Of a stretch of 64,000 nt of DNA, positions 45,895 to 62,957 are shown one piece after another. The stretch is from Pararhizobium sp. IMCC3301 (GTDB lineage Bacteria > Pseudomonadota > Alphaproteobacteria > Rhizobiales > GCA-2746425): the NCBI RefSeq assembly GCF_030758315.1, contig NZ_CP132336.1, forward strand, positions 4,369,001 to 4,433,000. Reading direction: 5' to 3'. A model generated the notes under the pieces. That model was not told the origin of the DNA. It was given only the letters and a program-made list of their open reading frames with translations, and made no database searches. Each line of letters begins with the position of its first letter. Positions within the stretch are counted from its first letter, which is position 1. A program made the position numbers and the translations under genes.

Positions 45895-47109
45895 ATGGCC
45901 GAGCAACCTTACATTCTGACATGCCGTAATGTGGCAACCATGGATCGGGCAAATCCTGCACCCTACGGGGAGCTGGTGGAAGCCTCGATGGTTATTGAGA
46001 ACGGCCTGATCGGCTGGGTCGGGAAAAGCGCAGACATGCCGCCCGACTATCGCCACCTGAAATCCCGTGATCTTGGCAATCGGCTTGTCACACCGGCGCT
46101 GATCGATTGCCACACCCATGTGGTTTCGGGCGGGAATCGGGCGCAGGAATTTGAAATGCGGCTGCAGGGCGCCTCTTATGAGGACATCGCCAAGGCCGGC
46201 GGCGGAATTGTCTCAACCGTCAAGGCAACGAGAGCTGCCAGCGAAGATGAGATGCTTGACGATGCTCTTGGCCGTGTCGATGCGATGATTGCGGAGGGCG
46301 TCAGCCTGATCGAAGTCAAATCCGGCTATGGTCTCGATCAGGAGACGGAACTGAAAATGCTGCGTGCCGCGCGGCGTATCGCCGAGATCCGGCCGGTCCG
46401 GGTAAAAACCTCGTTTCTTGGCGCGCATGCTGTTCCGCCGGAATACAGCGGCAAGGCCGACGCCTACATCGACACTGTCTGCATCCCAGCCCTGCGCGCG
46501 GCCCAAGCGGAAGGCCTGGTCGATGCGGTTGATGGGTTCTGCGAGAAAATCGCGTTTCTGCCGGACCAGATCGCCCGTGTGTTTGATGTCGCTGTGGAAC
46601 TGGGCCTGCCGGTCAAGCTTCATGCCGAACAATTGTCAAATCTGGGCGGTGCCAAATTAGCGGCATCTTACGGGGCGCTTTCTGCTGATCATATTGAATA
46701 CCTCGATGAGGCAGGCGTCCGCGCACTTGCAGCGTCCAAAACGGCGGCTGTCATTCTGCCGGGAGCCTATTACACACTTCGTGAAACCCGCATGCCACCG
46801 ATTGCGCTGTTGCGAAATCACGGCGTTCCGATGGCTGTTGCGACGGATTGCAATCCCGGCTCGTCGCCGCTTTCATCGCTTCTGCTGGCGATGAACATGG
46901 CCTGCACCCTGTTCCGGCTGACACCGGAAGAGGCACTGGCCGGTACCACCCGCAACGCCGCTCTGGCGCTTGGCGTCAGCGACAGCGGGGTCATCGCGGC
47001 TGGCAAACGCGCTGATCTTGCCATCTGGAACGCGCAGCACCCGGCAGAACTGTCCTACCGCATCGGATTTAACCCACTGGAAAAACGTATCTTCGGAGGC
47101 GAAACTTGA
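45895..47109 (+). CDS. hutI: Imidazolonepropionase HutI
   Basis: 404 residues. Amidohydrolase motifs are [20 protein letters not shown] (metal His pair and substrate loop), [35 protein letters not shown] and [10 protein letters not shown] with the metal Asp. It opens imidazolone-5-propionate to N-formimino-glutamate, the third step of histidine breakdown. It leads the operon hutI-H-G-U; its stop overlaps the hutH start. Confidence 0.95.
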
Positions 47110-48644
47110 CGCACATGACTTTGCTGCCGGGCTCGGTTTCTCTGGCACAATTAGGCGAGATTTACTGGACCTCGGCCAATGTGAGGCTGGATCGCGGCTG
47201 CCGCGACGCTGTGATTGAGGCATCCGAGCGCATTGCAATAGCCGCGAGCGGAGACGCACCGGTTTATGGCGTCAATACCGGTTTCGGCAAGCTCGCCAGC
47301 ATAAAGATCGCGCCAAAGGATGCCGCCACCCTGCAGCGCAACCTGATTCTCAGCCATTGCTGCGGTGTCGGCGAGCCGATTGCGCGGCACATGGTGCGGC
47401 TGATGATGGCGCTGAAACTGCTCTCCTTCGGGCGCGGCGCGTCCGGCGTCAGATGGGAGCTTGTTGAACTGCTTGAAAACATGCTGGCGAGGGGCGTGAC
47501 CCCAATCATCCCGGCGCAAGGCTCGGTCGGCGCTTCCGGCGATCTGGCTCCTTTGGCGCATATGACCGCTGTACTCATCGGCGAAGGTGAAGCAGAATTT
47601 GACGGCGAAACACTTTCCGGAGCGGAAGCGATGCGCCGCGCCGGTCTGGCTCCGGTCATTCTGGGGCCCAAAGAAGGCCTTGCCTTCATCAATGGCACCC
47701 AGTTTTCCACTGCCTTTGCGCTGGCCGGCCTGTTTGAAGCCTGGCGCGCTGCGCAGAATTCCCTCTTGACATCGGCGATGTCGACCGACGCCATTATGGG
47801 ATCGACCGCTCCGACCCAACCTGAAATTCATACCCTGCGCGGCCATCGCGGACAGATCGAGGCGGCAGCGGCGATCCGAACCTTGCTCGACGGCTCGATT
47901 ATCCGGCAAAGCCATATAGACGGCGATTCCAGGGTTCAGGACCCTTATTGTATTCGTTGTCAGCCCCAGGTCACCGGTGCGGCGATGGATGTGTTGCGTC
48001 AGGCCGCTACAACACTGCAAATCGAAGCCAACGCCGCCACGGATAATCCGCTGGTGCTGACAGAGGCCAACATCATTGTCTCCGGCGGCAATTTTCATGC
48101 CGAGCCGGTCGGCTTTGCTGCGGATATGATTGCACTGGCGATCGCGGAAATCGGCGCCATTGCCCAACGCCGCATCGCCTTGATGGTCGATCCGGCGCTC
48201 AATCACGACCTGCCGCCGTTTCTGACCCCGGACCCGGGTTTGAATTCAGGACTGATGATTGCCGAAGTGACGACGGCGGCTCTGATGAGTGAAAACAAAC
48301 ATCAGGCCAATCCCTGTGTCACCGACAGCACACCAACCAGCGCCAATCAGGAAGATCATGTGTCGATGGCCGCCCATGGCGCCCGCCGCCTGCTGCGCAT
48401 GACCGTCAACCTCAATTATATTCTTGGCGTGGAATTGCTGTGTGCTGCCCAGGGCATCGAATTCCGCGCACCACTGCAAACCAGCGTGCCGCTGCAGTCC
48501 GTTCTGCGCTGTCTGCGCAATAAGGTTGCCACCATCAGGGCCGATCGTTATCTGGCACCCGATCTGGAGGCAGCCCGTGGTCTGGTGTCCTCAAGCGATA
48601 TCCTCAACGCATCAGGCATCGACCTGCCGGAGCTGGCAGTATGA
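47106..48644 (+). CDS. hutH: Histidine ammonia-lyase HutH
   Basis: 512 residues from TTG 47106, with GGAGG six bases upstream and TTGA overlap with the hutI stop. ATG 47115 is the alternative but sits too far from that site. The MIO-forming triad A143-S-G145 is in [29 protein letters not shown] near residue 54 and the [15 protein letters not shown] block complete the active site. It deaminates L-histidine to urocanate. Confidence 0.95.
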
Positions 48645-49429
48645 GTCCGGTCACGGTGCAGAGCGGCGACAGCCCGGTCATACTGGGTCTGCCCCATGGC
48701 GGAACATTTGTCCCGGCGGAAATTTTCAAGCGTCTCAATGATCCTGGTCAGGGACTGGACGATACGGACTGGCATATCAGCCAGCTCTATGATGGCCTGC
48801 TGCCGGATGTGACCACTGTCACAGCGACATTTCATCGCTATGTGATTGATGCCAATCGCGATCCCGAAGGCGTGTCACTCTATCCCGGCCAGAACACAAC
48901 TGGCCTTTGCCCGCTGACTGATTTTGACGGCAGGCCGATCTGGCGCGGGGGTCAAGAGCCGTCCGCTGATGAGATCGGGCAGCGCTGCATTCAATTCCAC
49001 AAGCCTTATCATGATGCCCTGGCAGTGGAAATCGAGCGCGTCAGGGCGGTGCACGGCTACGCAATCCTCTATGATTGTCATTCGATCCGCTCGGAAATTC
49101 CGTTTCTGTTTGACGGGTTGCTTCCGATTTTCAATATCGGCACCAATAATGCAACAACCTGCGCGGCTGAAATAGAACAGGCGGTGCTCGCGATCTGCAG
49201 CAATGCGGCCGGCTTCGATCACGTCCTGAATGGCCGCTTCAAGGGCGGCTGGACCACCCGGCACTACGGCGTGCCGGAGCAGGGTGTTCATGCCCTCCAG
49301 ATGGAAATCGCCCAGCGCGCCTATATGAACGAGCAGGCACCCTGGACCTACCGGGACGATCTTGCCGCCCAAATCCGTCCTCACCTGTCAAAAATTCTGC
49401 GCGCTCTCGCCGCCTGTCAGACCCAGTAA
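48641..49429 (+). CDS. hutG: N-formylglutamate deformylase HutG
   Basis: 262 residues with an ATGA overlap with the hutH stop. It belongs to the N-formylglutamate amidohydrolase family ([46 protein letters not shown]). It hydrolyses N-formyl-glutamate to glutamate and formate, the last step in the HutF branch. The formate made here could feed the formate dehydrogenase at the left edge of the window, which is a suggestive but unproven link. Confidence 0.93.
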
Positions 49430-49448
49430 AAAAGAAGGACCACGTGCC

Positions 49449-51119
49449 ATGAATGATCCCCGCAAGAATTCGCGCGATGTTTTTCCGCCGACCGGCACCA
49501 AACTGAATGCCAAAAGCTGGCTGACAGAAGCACCGCTGCGGATGCTGATGAACAATCTGCATCCCGATGTTGCTGAAAACCCGCACGAACTGGTTGTCTA
49601 TGGCGGCATCGGGCGCGCGGCGCGCACCTGGGATGATTTTGACAAGATTGTCGCCAGCCTCAAAGAGCTTGAAGACGATGAGACGCTGTTGGTTCAATCC
49701 GGCAAGCCGGTCGGTGTGTTCCGCACTCACACCGACGCACCGCGGGTTCTGATCGCAAATTCCAATCTGGTGCCGCATTGGGCTACCTGGGACCACTTCA
49801 ACGAACTCGATAAGAAGGGTCTTGCCATGTATGGCCAGATGACCGCGGGTTCCTGGATATACATCGGCACCCAGGGCATTGTTCAGGGCACCTATGAGAC
49901 CTTTGTTGAAGCGGGCCGCCAGCATTATGCCGGCGATCTGAAGGGCAGGTGGATACTCACCGCCGGCCTTGGCGGTATGGGCGGCGCGCAACCGCTGGCT
50001 GCCGCAATGGCAGGGGCCTGTTGTCTGGCAGTGGAATGTGACGAGACCAGAGCCGATTTCCGCATGCGCACCCGGTACGTTGACGAGAAAACCAATTCTC
50101 TCGATGAAGCGCTGCAGATGATTGAAACATGGACCAGCGCCGGTGAAGCCAAATCAGTCGCGCTGATTGGCAACGCTGCTGATATTTTTCCCGAATTGTA
50201 CCGCCGTGGCGTCAGGCCGGATATGGTAACCGACCAGACCAGTGCTCACGACCCAATCCATGGTTACCTGCCGCAAGCCTGGTCCGTGGCGCAATGGCGC
50301 GAAAAGCAGGAGTCTGATCCACGATCTGTCGAAAAGGCTGCACGCGCGTCCATGAAAACCCAGGTGGCGGCCATGGTGGATTTCTGGAATGCCGGCGTGC
50401 CGACCTTTGATTACGGCAATAATATCCGCCAGGTCGCTCTGGACGAAGGTCTGGAAAACGCCTTTGCATTTCCCGGCTTTGTGCCGGCCTATATCCGGCC
50501 GCTGTTCTGCCGAGGCATCGGCCCCTTCCGCTGGTGTGCATTGTCCGGTGATCCGGAAGATATTTACCGCACCGACGCCAAGGTCAAGGAACTCATTGAC
50601 GACGAAAATCTCCACAACTGGCTGGATATGGCGCGCGAGCGCATTGCCTTTCAGGGGCTGCCCGCCCGGATCTGCTGGGTTGGTCTCGGTCAGCGCCACA
50701 AGCTCGGGCTGGCGTTCAATGAAATGGTGCGAACTGGCGAATTATCGGCCCCCATTGTCATCGGGCGCGATCATCTGGATTCCGGGTCCGTAGCCTCTCC
50801 CAACCGCGAGACCGAAGCCATGAAAGACGGATCGGATGCGGTGTCCGACTGGCCATTGCTCAATGCGCTTCTCAACACGGCAAGCGGGGCGACATGGGTC
50901 TCGATACATCATGGCGGCGGCGTTGGCATGGGATTTTCCCAGCATGCTGGAATGGTGATTTGCTGCGATGGATCGCATGACGCTGACCGGCGCCTCGAAC
51001 GCGTGCTCTGGAACGACCCGGCCAGCGGCGTCATGCGCCATGCCGATGCAGGCTATGACATTGCGCTGGAATGCGCCCGGGAGAACAATCTGCATCTGCC
51101 CGCCATTCTGGGAAACTAA
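49449..51119 (+). CDS. hutU: Urocanate hydratase HutU
   Basis: 556 residues from ATG 49449; the frame extends upstream into hutG without family support. Hallmarks are [20 protein letters not shown], the NAD-binding [19 protein letters not shown] and the Cys-containing [20 protein letters not shown]. It adds water to urocanate with a tightly bound NAD to give imidazolone propionate. It is the last gene of the operon. Confidence 0.96.
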
Positions 51120-51166: not shown

Positions 51167-52780
51167 CTATTCGTCGTGCCCGGCCTTGCGCAGGCCTTCC
51201 ATGATATGGGCGAAATCGCCTGCTGTGGCATTCCATTTGCGGATTTCGGCAGCCGCGGAAATATTGGGTTTGACTGTTTTCATCTTCGCCAGCGATGCGG
51301 CAGCTTCCGGACGCTCCAATTGTCCCAATGCGGCTGCGTTCAATATATGGCTCCAGTAAAAACTTGGCATGCTGATGCGTTGAACATCCACCAGCACATC
51401 TTCGTATTGGCGCTGATGGTAATGCAGCCGTGCAAAACTGAAATGATACCAGCCGGGATGTAACGGGTTGAGTTGTTGCGCCCGCCTCGACAACGCAATG
51501 CCGCGCTCATATTCCCCCATAAAAGACAGATAATGGCCGACTTCCGCAAGGATCTCCGGGTCATTTGGATTAACGTCCAGCGCGCGCTGCGCTTCAGCTT
51601 CGAACTTGCCATTATCCTTGCGAAAGAAATGCACGATCGCCAGCCAGCAATGCGCATAAGCACTCTGCGGATCGAGCTCAATCGCCTTGAGCGCCATTTT
51701 CAGGGCCCGTTCAATCGGGTCCGGTCGCGGATTGGCATCGAACCGGTGCTCGGCAAGATAGACATTAGCCAGCAAGGCGTAAGCTTCGGCATAATTCGGG
51801 TCCAGCTCCACCGCCTTTTCAAGCAGATCACGGGCTTCGGCATGCATCGTCTCATTCAGTGTCGCCGTATAGGGCCGCGCCCGAAGCAGGCAATCATAAG
51901 CATCCAGCTCGGCGGGACTTTTTCGCAGCGCCCGTGACAATGCGGTATTCTGCATTTTGACACCGAGTGAGGCGACGATCATACGCGTCACCGCATCCTG
52001 CACTGCAAAAATATCTTCCAATTGCCGGTCATAGCGGTCTGCCCACAACGAAACGCCGGATGCCGCCTCAATGAGTTGCACCGCGACGCGAAGCCGCTCA
52101 CCATCACGGCGCACACTGCCGTCGACAATGTAATCCGCTCCGAGTTTGCCGGCAATTTCAGCCAGAGGAACATCGCGGCTTTTGAAGTGAAATGACGATC
52201 CGCTGGCGATTACCCGCAATTCACGGAACTGCGTCAGATTGGAAATTACATCTTCGGTCAGACCGTCGCAGAAATAGGCGTCCAGGCCTTCGCTGGCGAT
52301 TTTGAATGGCAAAACTGCTACGGTCGGCATGCTTGTTGTCTGTTGTGTTTCGCACCATGCGGCAGGTTGTCTCTTGTTGATTGGCAAGACTGTCGCAGCC
52401 AGTGTCTTTTCAGCTTCAGTCGTGGACCCAGGAGCATCATTCAAGACAGCCTCGGGCACCACATCTTCAGCATCGCAGGTAACATCGGCGACAAATCGGA
52501 AGCCGCGTCGCGGAATTGTCCGGATGACACTTTGCCGTTCACCGGTATCGCCAACCGCGCGTCTGAGGGCAAATATCCGGCTGCTCAGAGTGGTATCGGA
52601 AACCGCACGCCCGTCCCACACAGCTTCGATCAGATCATCCCTCGATACAATCCGGTCGCGGTTCTGCATCAAATGCCACAGCACATTGAAGACTTGTGGT
52701 TCAAGGGCAACGATTTTGCCGTGTCTGCGCAATTCATAGATCGTTGGATCAAGGTCGAAGGCACCGAAGCGGTAGATCAT
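51167..52780 (-). CDS. OmpR-type winged-helix regulator with TolB-like and TPR domains
   Basis: 537 residues. Residues ~1-100 are a CadC/OmpR-type DNA-binding winged helix (VLWHLMQNRDRIVSRDDLIEAVWDGRAVS; TIPRRGFRFVADV). Residues ~150-285 resemble the TolB N-terminal-like region found in these regulators (VAVLPFKIASEGLDAYFCDG). Residues ~310-510 are TPR-like helices (LDPNYAEAYALLANVYLAEH). No transmembrane helix is apparent, unlike CadC. It is divergent from the DUF1326-DUF2182 pair across 126 bases and may control it. The signal is unknown. Confidence 0.82.
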   Translation of the reverse strand: MIYRFGAFDLDPTIYELRRHGKIVALEPQVFNVLWHLMQNRDRIVSRDDLIEAVWDGRAVSDTTLSSRIFALRRAVGDTGERQSVIRTIPRRGFRFVADVTCDAEDVVPEAVLNDAPGSTTEAEKTLAATVLPINKRQPAAWCETQQTTSMPTVAVLPFKIASEGLDAYFCDGLTEDVISNLTQFRELRVIASGSSFHFKSRDVPLAEIAGKLGADYIVDGSVRRDGERLRVAVQLIEAASGVSLWADRYDRQLEDIFAVQDAVTRMIVASLGVKMQNTALSRALRKSPAELDAYDCLLRARPYTATLNETMHAEARDLLEKAVELDPNYAEAYALLANVYLAEHRFDANPRPDPIERALKMALKAIELDPQSAYAHCWLAIVHFFRKDNGKFEAEAQRALDVNPNDPEILAEVGHYLSFMGEYERGIALSRRAQQLNPLHPGWYHFSFARLHYHQRQYEDVLVDVQRISMPSFYWSHILNAAALGQLERPEAAASLAKMKTVKPNISAAAEIRKWNATAGDFAHIMEGLRKAGHDE

Positions 52781-52906
52781 CTAAGATCGATCTCCCTGAC
52801 CGAAAAACGAGGTTATCTGAATGTATTCTCAATGCCATCTTCAAGCAAGGACGCCCGCCATCTGCCAGAACTGATGCCTTCCAAACATCAGAAAAGGAGA
52901 TATTCG

Positions 52907-53509
52907 ATGACCTGGTCACTTAAGGGAACGTATTTTGAGAGCTGCAACTGCAATGTTGCCTGCCCGTGTCTTTTCCTCAGCCCGCCGACAGAAGGCGAGT
53001 GTAATGCGCTGGTTGGCTGGCACATTGAAAAGGGCGACGACGAGAGCGTGGATCTGTCCGGACTCAATGTGGCGCTTGCTGTCCACTCTCCCGGTCACAT
53101 GGCTACCACCCAGTGGAATGTCGCGGTTTACATCGACGAGCGTGCGACTGAGGCACAGAATGCCAGTTTGATGAAAATCTTCGGCGGACAGGGCGGCGGC
53201 CATCCGGCGCGGCTCGCCACCCATATCGGCAAAATTCTCGGCGTCAAATCCGTGCCAATTGACTATTCCATCAACGGTGGAAATCACGCGCTGAAAATCC
53301 CGGATATTGCTGACGTGGAAATTACGCAGATGGCCGGGCAGGGTGACGGGCCCGTGACGATTTCCGGTCATCCCCTGTGCATTGCACCGGGGTTTGCGGC
53401 GACAGCGGCAAAATCAGACAAACTGGTTTACAACGATCACGGCATGGCGTGGGACCTGTCCGAAAAGACTGGTGTTTTCTCACCCTTTGCCTATCAGAGC
53501 GAGCAGTGA
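52907..53509 (+). CDS. DUF1326 domain protein
   Basis: 200 residues from ATG 52907 (GGAGA seven bases upstream); the frame is open far upstream inside the divergent gene, but that part is a shadow. The N-terminus has a Cys cluster SCNCNVACPC (~12-21), the hallmark of the family, followed by LVGWHIEKGD and a beta-rich body. Function is not established; the Cys cluster suggests metal handling. Its stop shares a base with the start of the DUF2182 membrane protein, a recurrent pairing. Confidence 0.85.
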   Translation: MTWSLKGTYFESCNCNVACPCLFLSPPTEGECNALVGWHIEKGDDESVDLSGLNVALAVHSPGHMATTQWNVAVYIDERATEAQNASLMKIFGGQGGGHPARLATHIGKILGVKSVPIDYSINGGNHALKIPDIADVEITQMAGQGDGPVTISGHPLCIAPGFAATAAKSDKLVYNDHGMAWDLSEKTGVFSPFAYQSEQ

Positions 53510-54300
53510 TGGCAGACGCCGGCTTTCACCGCGAAGCAGGGGGGTGGATATCACCAGCGCGTCTCACCCTGCTGCTGAGCGGCCCGGTGTTGATTGTTTT
53601 CGGGTCGTGGATTTACCTGTCTGTGATGATCGGTGACATGTCGATAATCCCCGGCATGTCATCGATGATGATGGCACCACAGATACTTGATCCGATGATG
53701 CTGTTCGGCCTGTTTGTGATGTGGTCGGTGATGATGGCGGCAATGATGCTGCCAACCGCCACTCCGATGATTCTCGCCTATGCCAGGATGCAGGCACCGG
53801 ACCGCGATCACGGCGCCGGCTGGTTGCCGGTATTGATGTTCTGTAGCGGATACATCCTCGCCTGGGCCGGGTTCAGTCTGGCGGCTGCAACGTTGCAGGC
53901 CGGTCTGACAAACTTTGCAATGATGTCGCCGATGATGATGAAAGCGGTTACAGGACCACTCGCCGCTGGCATTCTTGTTGCTGCAGGTCTGTACCAGTTT
54001 ACACCGCTGAAGCAATCCTGCCTGCATCAGTGCCGCACACCGCTCAGTTTCCTGATGACGCAATGGCGGGAAGGCCGGGTCGGAGCGCTGAGCATGGGGT
54101 GGCGACACGGGCTCTTCTGTGTCGGATGTTGCTGGGCGCTGATGGGGCTTTTATTCGTCGTCGGGGTGATGAATCCGGGCTGGATCATCGCCATCACACT
54201 GTATGTGCTGGTCGAGAAAACTGTTCCGGGCAGCGAGCAGATTTCAAAACTGCTTGGGGCGATCATGGCTGGTGTCGGCCTGGTTTGGTTTCTCATTTGA
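53509..54300 (+). CDS. DUF2182 integral membrane protein, possible metal-binding
   Basis: 263 residues from ATG 53509, coupled to the DUF1326 stop (TGATG). About six to seven helices, many rich in Met (SSMMMAPQILDPMMLFGL; MSPMMMKAV). The family motif HGLFCVGCCWALMGLLF lies near residue 200, and KQSCLHQC near 167 gives further Cys/His. The DUF1326-DUF2182 pair just before cytochrome oxidase genes suggests copper or heme-copper assembly, but this is inference. Confidence 0.85.
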   Translation: MADAGFHREAGGWISPARLTLLLSGPVLIVFGSWIYLSVMIGDMSIIPGMSSMMMAPQILDPMMLFGLFVMWSVMMAAMMLPTATPMILAYARMQAPDRDHGAGWLPVLMFCSGYILAWAGFSLAAATLQAGLTNFAMMSPMMMKAVTGPLAAGILVAAGLYQFTPLKQSCLHQCRTPLSFLMTQWREGRVGALSMGWRHGLFCVGCCWALMGLLFVVGVMNPGWIIAITLYVLVEKTVPGSEQISKLLGAIMAGVGLVWFLI

Positions 54301-54529: not shown

Positions 54530-54973
54530 ATGAAATGCAAAAGGTCCTATCATCAGCGTGCATTGAGCACTTGTTCGCGCGGGGCGAAAACTACGCCCCT
54601 GGCGGTCAAACTGTTGATGATTGCAAGCGTGGTTGTACTCTCAGCTTTCAACGTTTTCGCTGAATACCCGGAGATTTGGCAAGTAGCAGCGGAAACTGGG
54701 ACGCCAGCCAGCGAGCAGCTTGTGAGTTTCGCAAATGTCGAGATCTCTGACGCTGCGGACACTGACATTCCAGAAATTGACAGGGCTTCCACGATGCCTG
54801 GATGCCCTGTATCAATGAATATGATGGTATCCTGCTGGATCGCGATGTTTCCCGGTAGTACCGTAGAATTTATTTCAACAGTGGCCGTGTCGCCAACTGC
54901 TTTCGATGCAGCGCCTGCGCGGATGCATCACAATCCCCCGCCCGAAGTATTGATACAGCCTCCGCGAGTCTGA
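54530..54973 (+). CDS. Hypothetical membrane/secreted protein upstream of oxidase genes
   Basis: 147 residues. A basic N-terminus is followed by a hydrophobic helix (~26-44, LLMIASVVVLSAFNVFA), fitting a signal or anchor. The rest is polar with PGCPVSMNMMVSCWIAMFPG near 90 and a C-terminal MHHNPPPEVLIQPPRV. Met, Cys and His in the mature part could bind copper. It lies 69 bases upstream of the subunit II gene on the same strand. I do not recognise a family. It could be a spurious frame, but the signal-like helix and Pro-rich end argue for a real protein. Confidence 0.5.
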   Translation: MKCKRSYHQRALSTCSRGAKTTPLAVKLLMIASVVVLSAFNVFAEYPEIWQVAAETGTPASEQLVSFANVEISDAADTDIPEIDRASTMPGCPVSMNMMVSCWIAMFPGSTVEFISTVAVSPTAFDAAPARMHHNPPPEVLIQPPRV

Positions 54974-55042: not shown

Positions 55043-55651
55043 ATGGAAAATGCACTCGGAATCTCAGGCTATCAGGGTCTGATGATGTCCATCGTGTTCG
55101 GACTGGGCCTGTTGGGCATAGCCGGACTGCTTCTGGCCCTGTTCTGGCCGAAACGATGGCAAATGAAATATCGCATGGAGGTCGGCTTCGTTGTCCTCCT
55201 GCTAGGGCTCACGTGGTTTGCGGATTTCCGCAGCACCGAAATTTATCAGACCTATCAATCATCTCTGCGTGAATCCGGGACGGTCAAGCCGGATTCAACA
55301 GAGCAAGGCGGCGGATTCGACCGCGAATTGCGCGTTATCGCATTCCAGTGGGGCTTTGCCTTTCTCACAGACGACAATGAAATCAGCAGAAACGCGGCGA
55401 TGGTCAAACCGGGTGAGAAGGTGCTGTTCAAGATTTTCAGCAACGATGTGATTCACGGCTTTAATATTCCTGCTGTTGGCATCACCACCGAATTCGACCC
55501 AGGTGAAGAACGCCAGGTTTGGATCAGGGCTCCGGAAAAACCGGGCAAATACCTCATCCAGTGCGTCAATTACTGCGGTATCGGACACGCGCAGATGAAG
55601 GCATGGCTCGTCGTCGAGGGCGATGAAGAGAACACCGAGGTCGGCACATGA
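55043..55651 (+). CDS. Cytochrome c oxidase subunit II, CuA-containing, B-type-like
   Basis: 202 residues with two N-terminal helices (~12-35 and ~46-62) and a periplasmic cupredoxin domain. CuA ligands are the His in DVIHGFNIP and C174-V-N-Y-C178-G-I-G-H182-A-Q-M185. The CxNYC spacing with no Glu resembles the CNQYC form of ba3-type enzymes rather than the CSELC form of aa3 oxidases. It takes electrons from cytochrome c or a cupredoxin into subunit I, encoded 31 bases downstream. Confidence 0.9.
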   Translation: MENALGISGYQGLMMSIVFGLGLLGIAGLLLALFWPKRWQMKYRMEVGFVVLLLGLTWFADFRSTEIYQTYQSSLRESGTVKPDSTEQGGGFDRELRVIAFQWGFAFLTDDNEISRNAAMVKPGEKVLFKIFSNDVIHGFNIPAVGITTEFDPGEERQVWIRAPEKPGKYLIQCVNYCGIGHAQMKAWLVVEGDEENTEVGT

Positions 55652-55682: not shown

Positions 55683-57257
55683 ATGGCAAATTCACTAGAC
55701 GCCGAACGTATGGGCGGCACATTGAACTGGGAGCCTGAGGACGTCATCTCGCAGATGTCGCTTCGCACGCTTCTGTTTTCCAACGATTACCGCCATATCG
55801 CCATCAAAGGCATGCTGACCTCTATCGTCATGCTTGGCCTTGGCGGACTGATGGCAATATTGTTCCGAACCGAACTGGCCTTGCCCGATCTGCAGTTTTT
55901 TGACGCCCGGCCCTATATGTCGCTGCTGACATTGCACGGCATGCTCATGGTGTTCGGCTTTGCAATTCCGCTGGTCATCTCGCTGATGTATTACATGATG
56001 CCGCGGGTTCTGGGCACGGAAACACTGCTTTGGGCGCGCGGTGCGCAATGGAGCTACTGGCTGCTGATCGCCGCTGCCGTATTGCTGATCATTTCGCGCC
56101 CGGATTTCACCTGGACGTTCTATCCGCCGATGTCGCTGCGGGTCGGGGGCAATCTGGTCTGGATGGGATACATCGCCATTCTGCTGGTTGCCATTTCGGA
56201 ATTCCTTGCAGGCGCCGTGTTGCTGCGCAACGGACTGGCCGCAAAGGGGCGCTGGAAGAAAATGCCGCTGATGGGCTGGGCCGCACTCTCCGAAGGGCTG
56301 CTTCTGACTATCTCGACACCGGTTCTGGGATTGGTGGCGGTCTATCTGTTCACCGACTGGATGCAGTATACCGCGATGTTTGATCCGGCCCGGGGCGGTA
56401 ATATCATGAGCTTCATGTTCCTGTTCTGGTTCTATGGTCACCCCGCAGTCTACCTGCCTCTGGTGCCAGCCATTGCGCTGCTTTACACACTGTTGCCGCG
56501 CATGCTGGGCCGCCCGATGTGGAGCTACTGGTCAGCTGTCGTTGCGTTTTTGCTGCTGACGCTGTTGTCCTTCGTGGTTTTTCCGCATCATTTTCAGCCG
56601 GCCGCAACCGTAACCACAATGATCGGGCGCACCACGCAGATTCTGACGTTGCTGATCTTCATTCCCTCAACGCTGCATGTGTTCAACTGGATTGCGACAT
56701 TGTGGTCTGCACCCATCGCTGCCTCGGCCAAACGGTCAGTGCCGTTCAAATTCATGATCGCCTCGATCATATTTCTGATTATCGGCGGCGTAACCGGTTA
56801 TGTGAATGCCCAGGTCGCGGTTGACAGCGACTTTATTCACAACACTTATTGGGTCCCCGCCCACTTCCACGCGATGTTTGTGGGATTCGTTGCCAATATG
56901 GCGATGGCCGGCATGTATTTTCTGTATCCCTATTTTACCGGACGCATGTTCAGCCAGGGGATGGCCAATACCCATTTCTGGATGTGGCAAATCGGCATTT
57001 TTACCAAAGTCATGATGATGTATGTGCTGGGCTATGCCTATTTCCCGCGCTGGGTTGTCGATTATCTCGATCTGCCGCAGTGGTCGATGCCGCAAATGAT
57101 GCTGACCGGCGGCGCCTATCTGATCGGCCTTGGCTTTATCGTCTTTGTTTTCAACATCATCTGGAGTGCAAAGCGCGGCAGGATTGTGACAGGCGACGCC
57201 TGGCCTGTCATCCACGAAACCCCGACCGGTCCGGCTGTTGCAGCCCCCGCTGAATAA
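55683..57257 (+). CDS. Heme-copper oxidase subunit I
   Basis: 524 residues with about 12-13 helices. Ligands are visible: low-spin heme H85 (LTLHGMLMVF) and H396, CuB H253 with Y257 in GHPAVY and H302-H303 in FPHHFQ, and high-spin heme H394 in VPAHFHAMF. The Glu of the usual GHPEVY is Ala (A255), so the main D-channel proton donor of A1-type enzymes is missing, as in other non-A1 oxidases. The cross-linking Tyr is kept. It reduces O2 to water. No subunit III or assembly gene lies nearby. Confidence 0.9.
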   Translation: MANSLDAERMGGTLNWEPEDVISQMSLRTLLFSNDYRHIAIKGMLTSIVMLGLGGLMAILFRTELALPDLQFFDARPYMSLLTLHGMLMVFGFAIPLVISLMYYMMPRVLGTETLLWARGAQWSYWLLIAAAVLLIISRPDFTWTFYPPMSLRVGGNLVWMGYIAILLVAISEFLAGAVLLRNGLAAKGRWKKMPLMGWAALSEGLLLTISTPVLGLVAVYLFTDWMQYTAMFDPARGGNIMSFMFLFWFYGHPAVYLPLVPAIALLYTLLPRMLGRPMWSYWSAVVAFLLLTLLSFVVFPHHFQPAATVTTMIGRTTQILTLLIFIPSTLHVFNWIATLWSAPIAASAKRSVPFKFMIASIIFLIIGGVTGYVNAQVAVDSDFIHNTYWVPAHFHAMFVGFVANMAMAGMYFLYPYFTGRMFSQGMANTHFWMWQIGIFTKVMMMYVLGYAYFPRWVVDYLDLPQWSMPQMMLTGGAYLIGLGFIVFVFNIIWSAKRGRIVTGDAWPVIHETPTGPAVAAPAE

Positions 57258-57268
57258 GGAAAAACGAT

Positions 57269-58633
57269 ATGATTATGCGATTGTTTCTCGGGGTTGGCCT
57301 CGTTCTGCTTGGGGTAACCAGCTATTTCGTGGTGGTGGTGCCACCGCCAAATGTTCAACTCGTGCCGAAAATTTCTGCTGTGACCGTGTTGCAGGGTGAA
57401 GGGATACTGCCAACCGGCGATATTGCCGAAAATGAAGAAATCGAGCATGGCATTTTTGAAGTTCCCCCACAGGACGAAGTCATGCTCGAAAGCGCCACGG
57501 CCGATATGGACATGAGTGGCATGGATATGGGCGGAAGCACGATGACAATGCCGGATGGCACCGTCATGAAGGACAGCGACATGCCTGCAGCTGGTGACAC
57601 CGCCATGGATATGAACAACGGCGAGGGCACGATGACGATGCCGGATGGCACGGTCATGAAGAACAGCGACATGCCTGCAGCTGGTGACACAGCGATGGAT
57701 ATGAGCAACGGCGAGGGCACGATGACGATGCCGGATGGCACGGTCATGAAGAACAGCGACATGCCTGCAGCTGGTGACACAGCGATGGATATGAGCAACG
57801 GCGAGGGCACGATGAAGATGCCGGATGGCACCGTCATGAAGGACAGCGACATGCCCGCAGCTGGTGACACAGCGATGGATATGAGTAACGGCGGAAGCAC
57901 GATGACTATGCCGGATGGCACCGTCATGAAGAACAGCGACATGCCCGCAGCTGGTGACACAGCGATGGATATGAGTAACGGCGGAAGCACGATGACTATG
58001 CCCGATGGCACCGTCATGAAGGACAGCGACATGCCCGCAGCTGGTGACACAGCGATGGATATGAGCAACAGCGAGGGCACGATGACGATGCCGGATGGCA
58101 CCGTCATGAAGAACAGCGACATGCCTGCAGCTGGTGACACAGCGATGGACATGAACAAGGGCGACGAGACCATGACGGCGGCGGACGATACCGCAATGGA
58201 CATGGATGGCATGGATATGGGTGAAACGGCCATGGCGGAGGGCGGACTTGCCTTCAGCGATGACGGCGGCTTTGACCGGGAAATCACTTTGGCGATGTCT
58301 GAATGGACTTTTTCCGATCTCAACCTTGAGGTGGCAAAGGGTGAACGAATTCGGTTCACCGTGCGCAATGACGGCCAGATCCTGCATGAGTTCATGTTCA
58401 TGACAATGCCTGCCATGGCAGCCGTAAACTACCGCGCCAAGCGGGCTGACTGGAATCTGCTCGAGCATGAAGCCCTGTTCGAAAAGTCTTTGCTGCTGCC
58501 TGGCGGTGAGATTTCGTTTGTGGTCGAGGTACAACAAACCGGCAATTGGATGTTCATGTGCATGCTGCCTTATCACATGCAGATGGGCATGATGGGGCAG
58601 ATGGCGACGCCCGGCATGGCTATGAGCATGTAA
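57269..58633 (+). CDS. Membrane-anchored cupredoxin with seven Met/Asp-rich tandem repeats
   Basis: 454 residues, 11 bases after subunit I. An N-terminal helix (~3-25) anchors it. Residues ~91-301 are seven 30-residue repeats built on MTMPDGTVMKNSDMPAAGDT plus AMDMSNGEG. Each has about six Met and four Asp and no Cys or His. Residues ~325-454 are a cupredoxin: ITLAMSEWTFSDLNLEVAKG, ligand His in ILHEF (~371), and a C-terminal loop with Cys, His and Met (MFMCMLPYHMQMGMM, ~425-440). The likely role is periplasmic copper storage or delivery, or electron donation, to the adjacent oxidase. The repeat array is the odd part, and its length probably varies. Confidence 0.85.
   Translation: MIMRLFLGVGLVLLGVTSYFVVVVPPPNVQLVPKISAVTVLQGEGILPTGDIAENEEIEHGIFEVPPQDEVMLESATADMDMSGMDMGGSTMTMPDGTVMKDSDMPAAGDTAMDMNNGEGTMTMPDGTVMKNSDMPAAGDTAMDMSNGEGTMTMPDGTVMKNSDMPAAGDTAMDMSNGEGTMKMPDGTVMKDSDMPAAGDTAMDMSNGGSTMTMPDGTVMKNSDMPAAGDTAMDMSNGGSTMTMPDGTVMKDSDMPAAGDTAMDMSNSEGTMTMPDGTVMKNSDMPAAGDTAMDMNKGDETMTAADDTAMDMDGMDMGETAMAEGGLAFSDDGGFDREITLAMSEWTFSDLNLEVAKGERIRFTVRNDGQILHEFMFMTMPAMAAVNYRAKRADWNLLEHEALFEKSLLLPGGEISFVVEVQQTGNWMFMCMLPYHMQMGMMGQMATPGMAMSM
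57541..58170 (+). repeat. Seven tandem 90-bp in-frame repeats
   Basis: Exactly 7 x 90 bases. Each unit begins GATGA(C/A)(A/G/T)ATGCC at 57541, 57631, 57721, 57811, 57901, 57991 and 58081, and contains the invariant CAGCTGGTGACAC. Units differ by only a few bases, with some paired patterns such as units 5 and 6 (ACTATG), which suggests recent duplication. A degenerate eighth unit begins at 58171. The array encodes the Met/Asp-rich segment of the cupredoxin. Confidence 0.95.
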
Positions 58634-58910: not shown

Positions 58911-60173
58911 ATGAGTCAAAATTCCGGTTATCTGGCGCTCAGCGTCGATTCACTTGGCGCGCGGCTGAGCAATATCGATGCGATCACCAGACGGATCGGC
59001 GCGGATCCGGCGGAATGGTCCATCAAAGAGGTCGGTGACGGCAATCTGAATCTGGTGTTTGTTGTCGAAAGCCAGCGTGAGACCATCATCGTCAAACAGG
59101 CGTTGCCCTATGTCAGGCTGGTTGGGGATAGCTGGCCCTTGCCGCTGTCCCGTGCATATTTCGAACATGAAGCTCTGACCCGGCAAAGTCAGCGTGATCC
59201 GGGAACAGTACCGCAGATTTATTATTTCGATCGCGATCAGGCGCTGATCGTCATGGAGTATCTGCAGCCCCACACCATTCTGCGTGAGAAATTCATCCGC
59301 GGCGAAAAAGTCGCCGGTCTTGGCGAAACCATGGGCCGGTATTGCGCCCGGACTGCCTTCAGGGGCTCGGAGCTGTCGATGAAAAGCAGCGACAAGAAAG
59401 CCGATGTGGCCATATTTGCCGGAAATGTCGAGGTCCCGGCCATCACCGAAGCTCTGATTTTTACAGATCCCTATTACGATGCCGAGATGAATCATCACAC
59501 TGCTGGTCTTGATCCGGTTGTCGGCAAATTGCGCGCAGATGCCGAGCTCAAGCGCTGCGTCCAGGCGATGCTGATGCGTTTTGCCTCCAATACCGAGACC
59601 CTGCTGCATGGCGATCTGCATTCCGGCTCGATCATGTCGACGGATCGGGAAAGCCGGATGATTGACCCGGAATTTGCCCAATACGGCCCGATGGGCTTTG
59701 ATATCGGCATGCTGACGGCCAATTATCTGATGGCTTATTTCAGCCAGCCCGGCCACCGCCAGGTGGCAGAACTGGAGAGCTATCAGGACTGGATTCTGTC
59801 GATTATTTCCCAGACTTTCGCGGCGTTCACCACCGAGTTCGGGCAGCTTTGGAAAACCGAGCGGACCGGTATGCTTTATCCAGCCTGTCTGTTTGAGGAT
59901 CAGGGCCATTCCTCAGAACCGGCTTGCGAGGCTGTGCTGGCCGACATCTGGCGCGACGCGTTGAGTTTTTGCGGCATTGAGATGCACCGCCGTGTGCTGT
60001 CACTGGCGCATAACGCCGATTTTGAACGGATCGGGGACACAGCTGTTCGGGCGCAGCTGGAAGCGCGCAATCTGATGATGGGAGCCGAGTTGATCCTGCA
60101 ACCCGGCGGAGTTCCGGATACAGCAGCGCTGGTCGCTCTGGCACGGACATACGATAAGGAGACGTTCTTGTGA
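58911..60173 (+). CDS. mtnK: 5-methylthioribose kinase
   Basis: 420 residues, normal for MtnK. Kinase motifs are [14 protein letters not shown] near the N-terminus, the ATP Lys in [15 protein letters not shown], the catalytic loop [12 protein letters not shown] (~235-246) and the metal Asp in [17 protein letters not shown]. It phosphorylates 5-methylthioribose (or 5-deoxyribose) to the 1-phosphate. A strong GGGGAG ribosome site precedes the ATG. Its stop overlaps the mtnA start. Confidence 0.93.
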
Positions 60174-61279
60174 ACATAGATGGAACCCATTACCGGTCCT
60201 TGTGGTGGAACCACGAAAAAGCCGTGCTGGAAATTATTGATCAGCGCTGGTTGCCGCATGATTTCCGCATTCAGGCGGTTGCCACACTGCAAGACTTTGC
60301 TGCCGCAATTGTACAAATGCGCGTCCGGGGCGCGCCGCTGATCGGGGCAACGGCGGCCTATGGCATGGCGCTTGCCATGCGGCTTGACGCTTCGGACAGC
60401 CACATGGACGCGGCCTGGGATGCCCTCAACAGGACACGGCCGACTGCGATCAACCTGCGCTGGGCTCTCAACCGGTGCCGCAATGCGTTGCGTCCTCTGC
60501 CTGAAGCGGACCGCGTTGATGCTGCGCTGAAACTGGCGCACGAGATTGCCGATGAGGATGTCGGCATCAACCGCAGTATCGGGAAAAACGGCCTTGCGCT
60601 GATCCGCCAGATTGCGGCGCGCAAACCGGCGGGCGAGCCGGTGCGTCTGCTGACCCATTGCAATGCCGGCTGGCTCGCAACCGTCGATTGGGGAACCGCG
60701 ACCAGTCCCATGTATGAGGCCCATGATGCCGGCATTCCGATCCATGTCTGGGTCGATGAAACGCGGCCCCGCAACCAGGGTGCATTGACAGCCTGGGAAT
60801 TGGGCAGCCATGGCGTCCCGCACACCTATATTGTCGACAATGCCGGCGGCCACCTGATGCAGCATGGCATGGTCGATATGGTCATTGTCGGCACCGACCG
60901 CACGACGCGGCGCGGCGATGTCTGCAACAAGATCGGAACCTATCTGAAGGCGCTGGCGGCCCGTGACAATGGCGTGCCGTTCTATGTGGCACTGCCGTCA
61001 CCGACCATCGACTGGACGGTTGATGATGGCGTCGCCGGAATCCCGATCGAAGAACGCGACCCGATGGAGGTCAGCCATGTGCAGGGCGCTCTGGCAGATG
61101 GCACAATCGGACATGCACAGGTCTCGCCGAACGGCAGCCCCTGCGGAAATCCGGCTTTTGACGTTACGCCCAACCGGCTGGTGACAGGTCTGATCACCGA
61201 ACGCGGCGTGTGCGAGGCAACGCCGGAGGCGCTTGCGGCGATGTTCCCTGACCTCAGCAAAATAGAGAAGATCGCTTGA
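60170..61279 (+). CDS. mtnA: 5-methylthioribose-1-phosphate isomerase
   Basis: 369 residues from GTG 60170, coupled to mtnK. Family motifs are [19 protein letters not shown], catalytic C164 in [17 protein letters not shown] and D243 in [20 protein letters not shown]. It converts 5-methylthioribose 1-phosphate to methylthioribulose 1-phosphate. No mtnB/C/D/E genes follow, so the product probably goes to the class II aldolase two genes downstream. Its stop overlaps the regulator start (TTGA). Confidence 0.93.
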
Positions 61280-62280
61280 CGAGCCAGTTCAGCATATCTG
61301 TGGAGGACGCACCTGAGATCAGATCCCGGGGCGCAGCCGAATTACGCGCCGGGCGTCAGGAAGAGGCCATTCTGGATGCAACATGGTGTTACTATCATGA
61401 AGGCCTTAACCAGAACCAGATTGCAGACAAGCTCGGGCTGTCGCGGGCATCTGTGGTGAATTATCTCGCCGAAGCGCGCCGCCGCGATTATGTCCGCATC
61501 AGTCTTGACCCGGATATTTTTCGCAGCCACCAGCAGGCCAGGGCGCTCGTTAATAAATTCGGACTGAAAGATGCCAGCGTCGTGCCGGCAGCAGGCCAGC
61601 GCACTATCGAGCGTGTGGCCCGGATGACAGCGGACTGGCTGCCGCGCCTGCTGCAGCCCGGCGACCGGCTGGGTGTGGCCTGGGGGGAAACCATTTTTCG
61701 CGTCTGCGAAGCTGCCGCGCCGCAGGTTCTCGAAGATCTGACGGTGGTGCAGCTTGTCGGCTCGCGCCCGGCAGCAATGGGATTTGCCGCGGAGACCTGT
61801 TCGGCAACTCTGGCGCAGCGTTTTGGTGCCCATTGCATAAATCTGCATGTGCCGCTGCTGGTGTCGGACGCTGATTTAGCCGCGCGGCTCAGATCGGAGC
61901 CAGTCATTGCAGAGCAATTACAGGCGGTTGCTGCCTGCAACAAGGTGCTGTTTGCCTGCGGCACCTGCAATGCGGACAGTCATATTGTCCAGACCGGAAT
62001 TTTGAGCGCTGCCGCGCTTCAGACCTATGTCGCGAAAGGCGCGGCTGGTGTGATCTGCGGACGTTTGATCGACAGCAACGGCAGACATATGCCAACGGAA
62101 AATGAGGATCGGATGCTGGGTGTGTCCCTTGAACAGATGCAAGGCAAGGATATGGCGTTGCTTGCCAGCGCCGGCATCGACCGCGTACACGCTGTGCTGG
62201 CTGCATTGCAGGGTGGTTTTGTCACCCATCTGGCGATCTGCAGCGATACGGCCCGCCATCTTCTGGAGGCAGACGCATGA
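61276..62280 (+). CDS. SorC/DeoR-type sugar-binding transcriptional regulator
   Basis: 334 residues from TTG 61276. An N-terminal HTH (~40-62: [25 protein letters not shown]) is followed by a sugar-phosphate-binding SorC domain (~90-325) with [15 protein letters not shown] and [13 protein letters not shown]. Such proteins respond to phosphorylated sugars. Lying inside the mtn operon, it probably senses methylthioribose 1-phosphate or a related ester. It overlaps both neighbours by four bases. Confidence 0.87.
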
Positions 62281-62957
62281 TATCTCATCAGTCCGATACG
62301 AAGGCGTTGCGCCAGTCCATTATCGATGCCTGTCTGTCGATGAACCAGCTTGGGCTCAATCAGGGAACATCGGGTAATATTTCGGCACGCTGCGGTGAGC
62401 GCATGCTGATTACGCCTTCCGGCATTGCTTACGAGACACTGACCCCGGAGATGCTGCTGTCGCTGCCACTGGCTGGCGGGCTGGATGTTCCATTTCCCGG
62501 CGAGTCTCAGCCGGCGCTGCGGCCGTCCAGTGAATGGCGGTTTCACAAGGCCCTGTTGCAAAACCATGCTGATATGGGCTTTGTCGTTCATGCCCATCCG
62601 GCCTATGCGACGGCACTGGCTATGATCCGCAAGCCGATCCCGGCATCTCACTACATGATTGCCGCCTTTGGCGGCGACAGCCTGCGTGTCGCGGACTATG
62701 CGATCTTTGGCAGCAAAACCCTGGCGGAAAATGTTGTCCGCGCAAGCGCAAACCGTCATGGATGCCTGATGGCCAATCATGGCGCTCTGGTTCTTGGTGA
62801 AACACTGGCACGTGGCCTCTGGCGCCTTGGAGAACTGGAGGTGCTGGCGAAGAGTTATACGCTGGCCCAAATGCTTGGAACACCGGCGATTCTGAGCGCT
62901 GCGGAAATCGAAGAGGCTCTGCAGGCGTTTGCTGACTATGGATTGAAGGACAGCTGA
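62277..62957 (+). CDS. Class II aldolase (fuculose-phosphate-aldolase type), probable DHAP-shunt enzyme
   Basis: 226 residues. Zinc ligands are H105-A-H107 (VHAHPAYATAL) and H168 (MANHGALVLG), with the catalytic acid E86 in SSEWRFHKALL. The glycine-rich NQGTSGNISAR near residue 30 binds phosphate. MtnB dehydratases share this fold, so the distinction is not absolute. In an mtnK-mtnA operon lacking the rest of methionine salvage, an aldolase that splits methylthioribulose 1-phosphate to DHAP and a methylthio-aldehyde is the better fit. A convergent RND gene follows. Confidence 0.82.
   Translation: MISHQSDTKALRQSIIDACLSMNQLGLNQGTSGNISARCGERMLITPSGIAYETLTPEMLLSLPLAGGLDVPFPGESQPALRPSSEWRFHKALLQNHADMGFVVHAHPAYATALAMIRKPIPASHYMIAAFGGDSLRVADYAIFGSKTLAENVVRASANRHGCLMANHGALVLGETLARGLWRLGELEVLAKSYTLAQMLGTPAILSAAEIEEALQAFADYGLKDS

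Follow-up and report, generated by a model that had tools for sequence, protein, structure and literature searches.

Background

What does a small copper protein with a long methionine-rich repeat array do at the end of an oxidase operon? The question is raised by a gene in a 64,000-nucleotide stretch of the genome of Pararhizobium sp. IMCC3301 (hereafter, the window). The initial annotation, made from the letters of this stretch, saw in the gene product a membrane anchor, seven 30-residue repeats, and a cupredoxin, and considered an oxidase-linked copper sponge of this type to be undescribed.

Parts of such an arrangement are in print. According to the available portion of PMC11840665, Met-rich domains bind Cu(I) weakly at each site and act collectively as a 'Cu sponge'. 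As described there, the CueO Met domain resembles the segment studied here in being a flexible Met-rich region near a type-1 copper site; it differs in that it belongs to a multicopper oxidase, whereas here the region is the hypervariable tether of a single cupredoxin. In the accessible sections of PMC13308877, a flexible His/Met-rich region of CopI is modelled to bind Cu(I) and to pass it to the cupredoxin site. An oxidase scheme of iron oxidisers includes membrane-bound cupredoxins (PMC8239418, available in part), and AcoP of Acidithiobacillus ferrooxidans, which carries a membrane segment, binds tightly to its oxidase and reactivates it in vitro (PMC4059628, likewise available in part). We found no account of the tethered-cupredoxin family in the accessible texts of the open-access full-text literature, which excludes subscription papers and preprint servers, and the word 'cupredoxin' does not occur in the available portion of the main text of a paper on alphaproteobacterial oxidases (PMC6431628). 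Within that literature, 'undescribed' holds for the combination and does not hold for its parts, which are of known kinds (the CueO sponge, CopI, and AcoP); what would be new is the combination and the hypervariable repeats.

Methods

Genome contigs were scanned once with the cupredoxin domain (the head), which gave 53 related loci from about 49 genomes (49 isolate names by title). Because several loci share a genome and the species are related, the locus counts given below are not counts of independent events. Some genomes occur twice, once under a genome handle and again by locus name (G010, for instance, is also L032/L059). One genome per species was covered; the comparison of repeat number is thus a comparison between species.

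Tethers were measured in 50 of the 54 proteins (the window's protein and its 53 relatives). L034 and L041 were omitted for contig ends, L039 for a run of N, and L060 for an unmatched motif. The tether of L080 was kept, mis-cut by the script, and L054 has some unknown residues. Three of the recurrent neighbour clusters were annotated with Pfam, and the kinase and UbiA family names used below come from this annotation.

Results and discussion

Layout of the gene

The gene and the parts of its product are as follows.

57269..58633, + strand: tethered cupredoxin gene, 454 amino acids (open reading frame list, Pfam, and the 53 related loci)
57272..57337, + strand: predicted membrane anchor, residues 2-23 (predicted helix with block pLDDT 92; hydrophobic sequence)
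57338..57487, + strand: acidic stretch 3' of the anchor, partly conserved, residues 24-73 (F-x-V-P-x-x-D-E motif near its end)
57488..58243, + strand: Met/Asp-rich tether, residues 74-325, 252 amino acids (52 Met, 21%; 0 His, 0 Cys)
57539..58168, + strand: seven 90-bp units in codon register (Tandem Repeats Finder span 57537-58164; shuffle test)
57629..57808, + strand: two identical adjacent units (57629-57718 and 57719-57808), the sole identical pair among the seven
58238..58630, + strand: cupredoxin head, residues 324-454 (Pfam, head model, profile and fold searches)
58385..58387, + strand: His373, putative first type-1 copper ligand (conserved in 54/54; ligand role by analogy)
58559..58591, + strand: Cys431-x4-His436-x4-Met441, the other putative type-1 copper ligands (each 54/54; role by analogy)

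The order of anchor, seven repeats, and cupredoxin was borne out by the helix prediction, by Tandem Repeats Finder (7.0 copies), and by Pfam. The ATG lies 11 bases from the stop codon of the upstream COX1 gene and is preceded by AAGGA, 8 bases 5' of it. The promoter scan gave 5 hits against 4.5 in shuffles and the terminator scan gave 7 against 5.2, both within one SD. In the acidic stretch, F63, P66, and D69 were invariant in all 48 alignment rows.

The full-length model gave the tether a block pLDDT of 35-76, a mostly low confidence that would be expected of a disordered segment. The strand pair predicted for each unit in the same model, which would make a mini-fold of each repeat, was not relied on at this pLDDT. 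Pfam matches within the array (DUF1153, MORN, Tcp10_C, and others) were read as low-complexity noise. On the minus strand, an open reading frame of 486 amino acids (57116-58576) is open across the whole array; it is His-rich because ATG reads CAT, and we take it as an artefact, a by-product of the repeat.

Linkage to a divergent oxidase

Two oxidase genes lie directly upstream.

55043..55651, + strand: COX2, oxidase subunit II, with the CuA-like motif CVNYCGIGHAQM (Pfam COX2, 44.3 bits; aligned to the ba3 CuA domain)
55683..57257, + strand: COX1, oxidase subunit I, divergent, with Ala255 and His332 for Glu and Lys (Pfam COX1, 310.8 bits)

Both products score above the Pfam cut-offs, and the heme/CuB His as well as the CuA Cys, His, and Met are all there. 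The best matches of COX2 among solved structures are CuA domains of ba3 oxidase. All 40 near-full-length sequences of the COX1 subfamily, the window's included, have Ala255 and His332 and keep the heme/CuB His. The Glu and Lys equivalents of these positions were read off an alignment with 6adq; we take them to be the Glu of HPEVY and the K-channel Lys, the usual proton-channel residues of a canonical A1-type oxidase. These canonical residues were not found in COX1, and the subfamily is possibly an oxidase with unusual proton uptake.

The linkage of the cupredoxin gene to these genes is strict. COX1 lies directly upstream of it in all 50 loci whose contig extends that far (three loci begin at a contig end), which supports the oxidase link seen in the initial annotation. 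COX2 precedes COX1 in 47 of 47 testable loci; in the other six of the 53, the contig ends first. From the oxidase side, each of the five COX1 copies of the subfamily that were encountered, including the window's, carries the cupredoxin. The source genome (G000, 4.6 Mb) has six COX1-family matches above the cut-off. Only 2 of the 53 loci have an open reading frame bearing CxxCH close to the operon; thus no cytochrome c travels along as a rule, and the cupredoxin is left as the linked redox protein.

The cupredoxin head

The four putative ligands (His373, Cys431, His436, and Met441), of the kinds named in the initial annotation, are invariant in all 54 sequences, as are eight further Met (376, 378, 383, 428, 430, 432, 437, and 442) and His400, at a head identity of 55-90% to the window's head. 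This supports a conserved type-1 copper ligand set, with the ligand roles assigned by analogy.

A cupredoxin fold is predicted for the head (model mean pLDDT 87). The head scored 33.5 bits against Pfam Cu-oxidase_2 (cut-off 20.4) and 18.9 bits against Cupredoxin_1, below the cut-off of 27. Foldseek with the head model placed auracyanin first and second and AcoP third. VIA-align placed EfeO at the top (Z 11.5, 90 residues) and auracyanins second to fourth (Z 11.0-10.5), followed by a Bacillus Cupredoxin_1 protein and FtrB (Z 10.2-10.4), AcoP (Z 10.1, rmsd 2.4-2.6, 99-100 residues), and azurins (9.6-10.0). Matches within Z 1 of each other are tied in VIA-align; thus this ranking does not single out AcoP. 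In a search of PDB sequences with a head profile (E<=0.01), auracyanins (best) and laccase-type oxidases were listed and AcoP was absent. Auracyanin (1qhq, 6kol, 2aan) is both the best Foldseek match and the best profile match; it is a photosynthetic electron carrier and is not known to have a Met-rich array.

The seven-unit array

Tandem Repeats Finder reported the array at 57537-58164 with a period of 90, 7.0 copies, 94% matches, no indels, and a score of 1060; the next best of its seven rows scored 99. The repeat score of the array exceeded that of all 100 shuffles of the same residues. The repeats had been annotated as exact, which they are not: the units are 94% alike, and only one neighbouring pair is identical. 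The estimate of about six Met and four Asp per unit, with no Cys or His, was correct, and the absence of Cys and His extends to the whole 252-residue tether.

Among the units, 18 of the 90 columns vary, with 3, 4, and 11 of these at codon positions 1, 2, and 3, and all six Met are invariant across all seven units. The pooled pN/pS among units was 0.22, which is indicative only, the units not being independent, and which suggests constrained coding sequence. With variation mostly at third positions, fixed Met, and one identical pair, the array appears to be a coding feature that has been maintained and has recently undergone duplication; the likeliest site of the latest event is the identical pair at 57629-57808.

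Tethers across the family

The window's tether is the longest of the 50, which range from 37 to 252 residues and from 6 to 52 Met. Met makes up 19.3% of all tether residues (median per tether, 19.4%) and Asp plus Glu about 20%. His amounts to 0.4% overall and occurs in 13 of the 50 tethers, and there is a single Cys in all 50 (in L057). Met-x-Met was observed 424 times against 204 expected and was above expectation in 48 of the 50 tethers, and Met-Met was observed 5 times against 206 expected; the Met-x-Met enrichment partly owes to shared ancestry and multiplied units.

In 39 of the 50 tethers, a repeat beat all 100 shuffles; the periods span 5 to 56, and 15 and 20 are the most frequent. Some lineages have a repeat unit in common, and many lineages differ. 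The tethers of L055, L056, L069, L072, L074, and L075 have DMDMDGDGVMDMSS-like stretches with Met interleaved, which, we assume, resemble calcium-binding D-x-D-x-D-G loops.

Of the expansion and contraction proposed in the initial annotation, length change between species was seen. The heads of the window's protein and L030 are 90% identical, with tethers of 252 vs 159 residues, and the two Aurantimonas loci L076 and L077 have heads 96% identical, with tethers of 102 vs 176. Other close pairs are nearly equal in length: L072 and L074 (heads 96% identical) have tethers of 133 and 134 residues, and L059 and L063 (95%) have tethers of 66 and 64.

The Met-rich, nearly Cys-free composition of the tether is thus kept while its sequence changes. 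It seems to be the composition and the Met spacing of the tether, and not its sequence, that are under selection; the tether looks like a segment whose composition is selected while tandem duplication keeps replacing its sequence.

This bears on a plainer account, in which the head is an electron-transfer cupredoxin on a flexible leash that delivers electrons to CuA, the tether gives reach, and its Met are incidental to copper. The invariant type-1 ligands, the fold close to that of auracyanin, the rarity of CxxCH near the operon, and the free tether length all fit this account. On a mere leash, however, the composition should drift, yet about 19% Met, almost no Cys, and the enriched Met-x-Met persist across many different repeat units; we regard the account as unlikely, if still worth serious attention.

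The tether, which is rich in Met, almost free of Cys, and located outside the membrane anchor, could also be a sacrificial antioxidant, its Met mopping up oxidants near the oxidase and being re-reduced by Met sulfoxide reductases. Met-rich scavengers exist, and such a role has been proposed for MrpX. The fusion of the tether to a copper protein and the preference for Met-x-Met with avoidance of Met-Met speak against it, and we consider it very improbable.

A proposed AcoP-like partner with a copper-buffering tether

The reading that we tentatively prefer, at a probability of about 0.45, is that the protein is an AcoP-like, membrane-tethered type-1 copper partner of a divergent CuA oxidase, with a disordered tether that serves as a labile Cu(I) buffer. 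The cupredoxin would be the dedicated partner of the upstream CuA-type heme-copper oxidase, as AcoP is of its own oxidase. In the disordered tether of about 250 residues, many Met thioethers would retain Cu(I) close to the oxidase in a weak, statistical manner; judging from composition, we infer a Cu(I) sponge of many weak Met sites. Copper would move from the tether to the type-1 site and perhaps on to CuA or CuB, and the head would sit on subunit II, exchanging electrons with it. The array would lengthen and shorten by tandem duplication while Met content and Met-x-Met spacing are kept. In favour of this reading are the linkage to COX1 and COX2 seen from both sides, the invariant ligand residues, the predicted fold, the Met-rich composition retained across changing repeats, the low pN/pS and fixed Met of the window's units, the rarity of CxxCH near the operon, and the published behaviour of Met-rich domains and of AcoP.

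Like AcoP, as known from the accessible text of PMC4059628, the protein has an N-terminal membrane segment (here a predicted helix), one H/C/H/M cupredoxin domain (here a predicted fold), and a gene in an oxidase cluster (here in 50/50), and the best fold matches of the head include AcoP structures. In contrast, AcoP, with 183 residues, has no room for such a tether and belongs to an acidophile oxidase; its loop, as given in the part of the source available, is C-x6-H-x4-M, whereas the loop here is C-x4-H-x4-M, with the three residues conserved in 54/54. The different loop spacing, the absence of AcoP from the PDB profile search, and the scores of EfeO, the auracyanins, and others, which equal or exceed that of AcoP, count against the analogy.

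Other observations count against the preferred reading as a whole. In model compounds, Asp, which is abundant in the tether, was considered to contribute nothing to Cu(I) binding (PMC11840665, in its available portion). Since some relatives have tethers of 37-66 residues, the family can do without a long array, and a large sponge would not be needed. Four relatives in the same genus live without the cupredoxin gene.

Alternatively, the protein may be a copper-insertion chaperone, whose tether gathers Cu(I) and whose head loads CuA or CuB of the adjoining oxidase. The strict linkage to the oxidase genes agrees with this. The source genome has no PCuAC match, and all four same-genus genomes, which lack the cupredoxin gene, have PCuAC. 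In the window, a homologue of the copper chaperone PpoB2 (PMC2855505, available in part) adjoins, next to a DUF1326 gene.

52907..53509, + strand: DUF1326 protein, with a likely start inside the open reading frame 52343-53509 (Pfam, 177.9 bits; this window only)
53377..54300, + strand: PpoB2/DUF2182 copper chaperone homologue (Pfam, 213.9 bits; a neighbour in this window only)

Against a chaperone, PCuAC coexists with the gene in 12 of the 15 other carrier genomes, so that replacement of PCuAC, suggestive within the genus, fails across the family; the source genome has two SCO1-type matches; and the invariant His-Cys-His-Met set suits electron transfer no less well than it suits donation. The PCuAC family (PF04314) was not among the Pfam matches of the window's protein at E<=1. 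On balance, we judge a chaperone role improbable.

A role in copper tolerance, in which toxic Cu(I) would be buffered and oxidised by a CopI-like protein whose gene merely happens to lie beside those of the oxidase, is suggested by a match to NCBIfam CopI (NF051440), a weak one of 27.7 bits vs a cut-off of 280. In the available text of PMC13308877, CopI has a cupredoxin site and disordered Met-containing segments thought to bind Cu(I); these differ from the present tether in being short and His-rich or His/Met-rich, and the window's protein lies in an oxidase operon. The N-terminal His-rich site varies among CopI proteins (same source, same portion). We rejected membership in CopI on the bit score and on the missing N-terminal His-rich site, the tether having 0 His. 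Heavy-metal-ATPase-like open reading frames flank the operon in L051, L053, and L061 (3 of 53 loci; by eye), which would fit a tolerance role. The gene order, however, is fixed with COX2-COX1 and not with one metal-resistance set, a weak point because most neighbours at the 53 loci are unannotated, and the window's tether has no His-rich segment. Such a role is, in our view, quite improbable.

CopA and CopB of Pseudomonas share with the present protein tandem Met-rich repeats, which in them are octapeptides thought to bind copper; they differ in that the repeats contain His and in that they are resistance proteins.

A long shot is a three-gene respiratory cuprous oxidase, in which the tether would capture Cu(I), the type-1 site would take the electron, CuA would pass it on, and O2 would be reduced. 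If this were true, copper detoxification would feed a membrane oxidase, the repeat number would set the capture capacity, and the odd proton-channel residues of COX1 would be in keeping with a specialised task.

Some 50 proteins, alike in the kind of head and of neighbouring oxidase but with tethers of 37-252 residues and 6-52 Met, form a natural series. It is difficult to examine Met-rich sponges one site at a time, and the series suits asking how Cu(I) capacity depends on the number and spacing of Met and whether the assembly or activity of an oxidase is affected by copper buffering next to it.

Distribution and neighbouring genes

The homologue search recommended in the initial annotation gave the 53 loci; the protein is thus not a one-off. 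Nearly all loci are alphaproteobacterial by title, a placing that leans partly on taxonomy as we presume it to be; the exceptions are L041 (Piscirickettsiaceae) and L080 ('bacterium'). Members include Jannaschia helgolandensis, Thiosulfatihalobacter marinus, Alterinioella nitratireducens, and Aurantimonas marina, and some carriers would, from their names, be marine bacteria. The family is uncommon: counting the source genome, 7 of 397 genomes of the order have the cupredoxin gene (E<=1e-20), and 3 of 385 genomes of the class have a COX1 of the subfamily (E<=1e-120). Plasmid records gave two cupredoxins only, of about 30% identity. The cupredoxin gene was absent from all four same-genus genomes, as was the COX1 subfamily (at E<=1e-50, two had a COX1 of 31% identity and two had none). 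This suggests that the genes were likely gained by transfer, or lost in the relatives.

We set aside DUF1326 and PpoB2 as parts of the system because neither was matched in the 53 loci, where up to about 3.4 kb upstream of COX2 was covered. The methionine-salvage-like genes at 58911-62957, also without a match in the 53 loci, were rejected as a functional link. As fixed partners, we rejected a two-component system (a kinase upstream in just 14 of the 40 loci with more than 1600 bp there) and a UbiA/CtaB-like gene (a UbiA-type gene downstream in just 27 of the 51 loci with more than 700 bp).

In the window, hut genes (45895-51119) and the methionine-salvage-like genes flank the oxidase. In the relative G001, the matches to hutU (89%) and mtnK (60%) lie about 825 kb apart, which suggests a rearrangement here, the mtnK match being too distant to be surely the same gene copy. 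Between PpoB2 and COX2, an open reading frame of 147 amino acids (54530-54973) has no family match above the cut-off. Elsewhere in the window, a long open reading frame on the minus strand (25165-27216) has a repetitive Pro/Ala/Glu-rich C-terminal part with short Cys-containing motifs and two overlapping repeat arrays.
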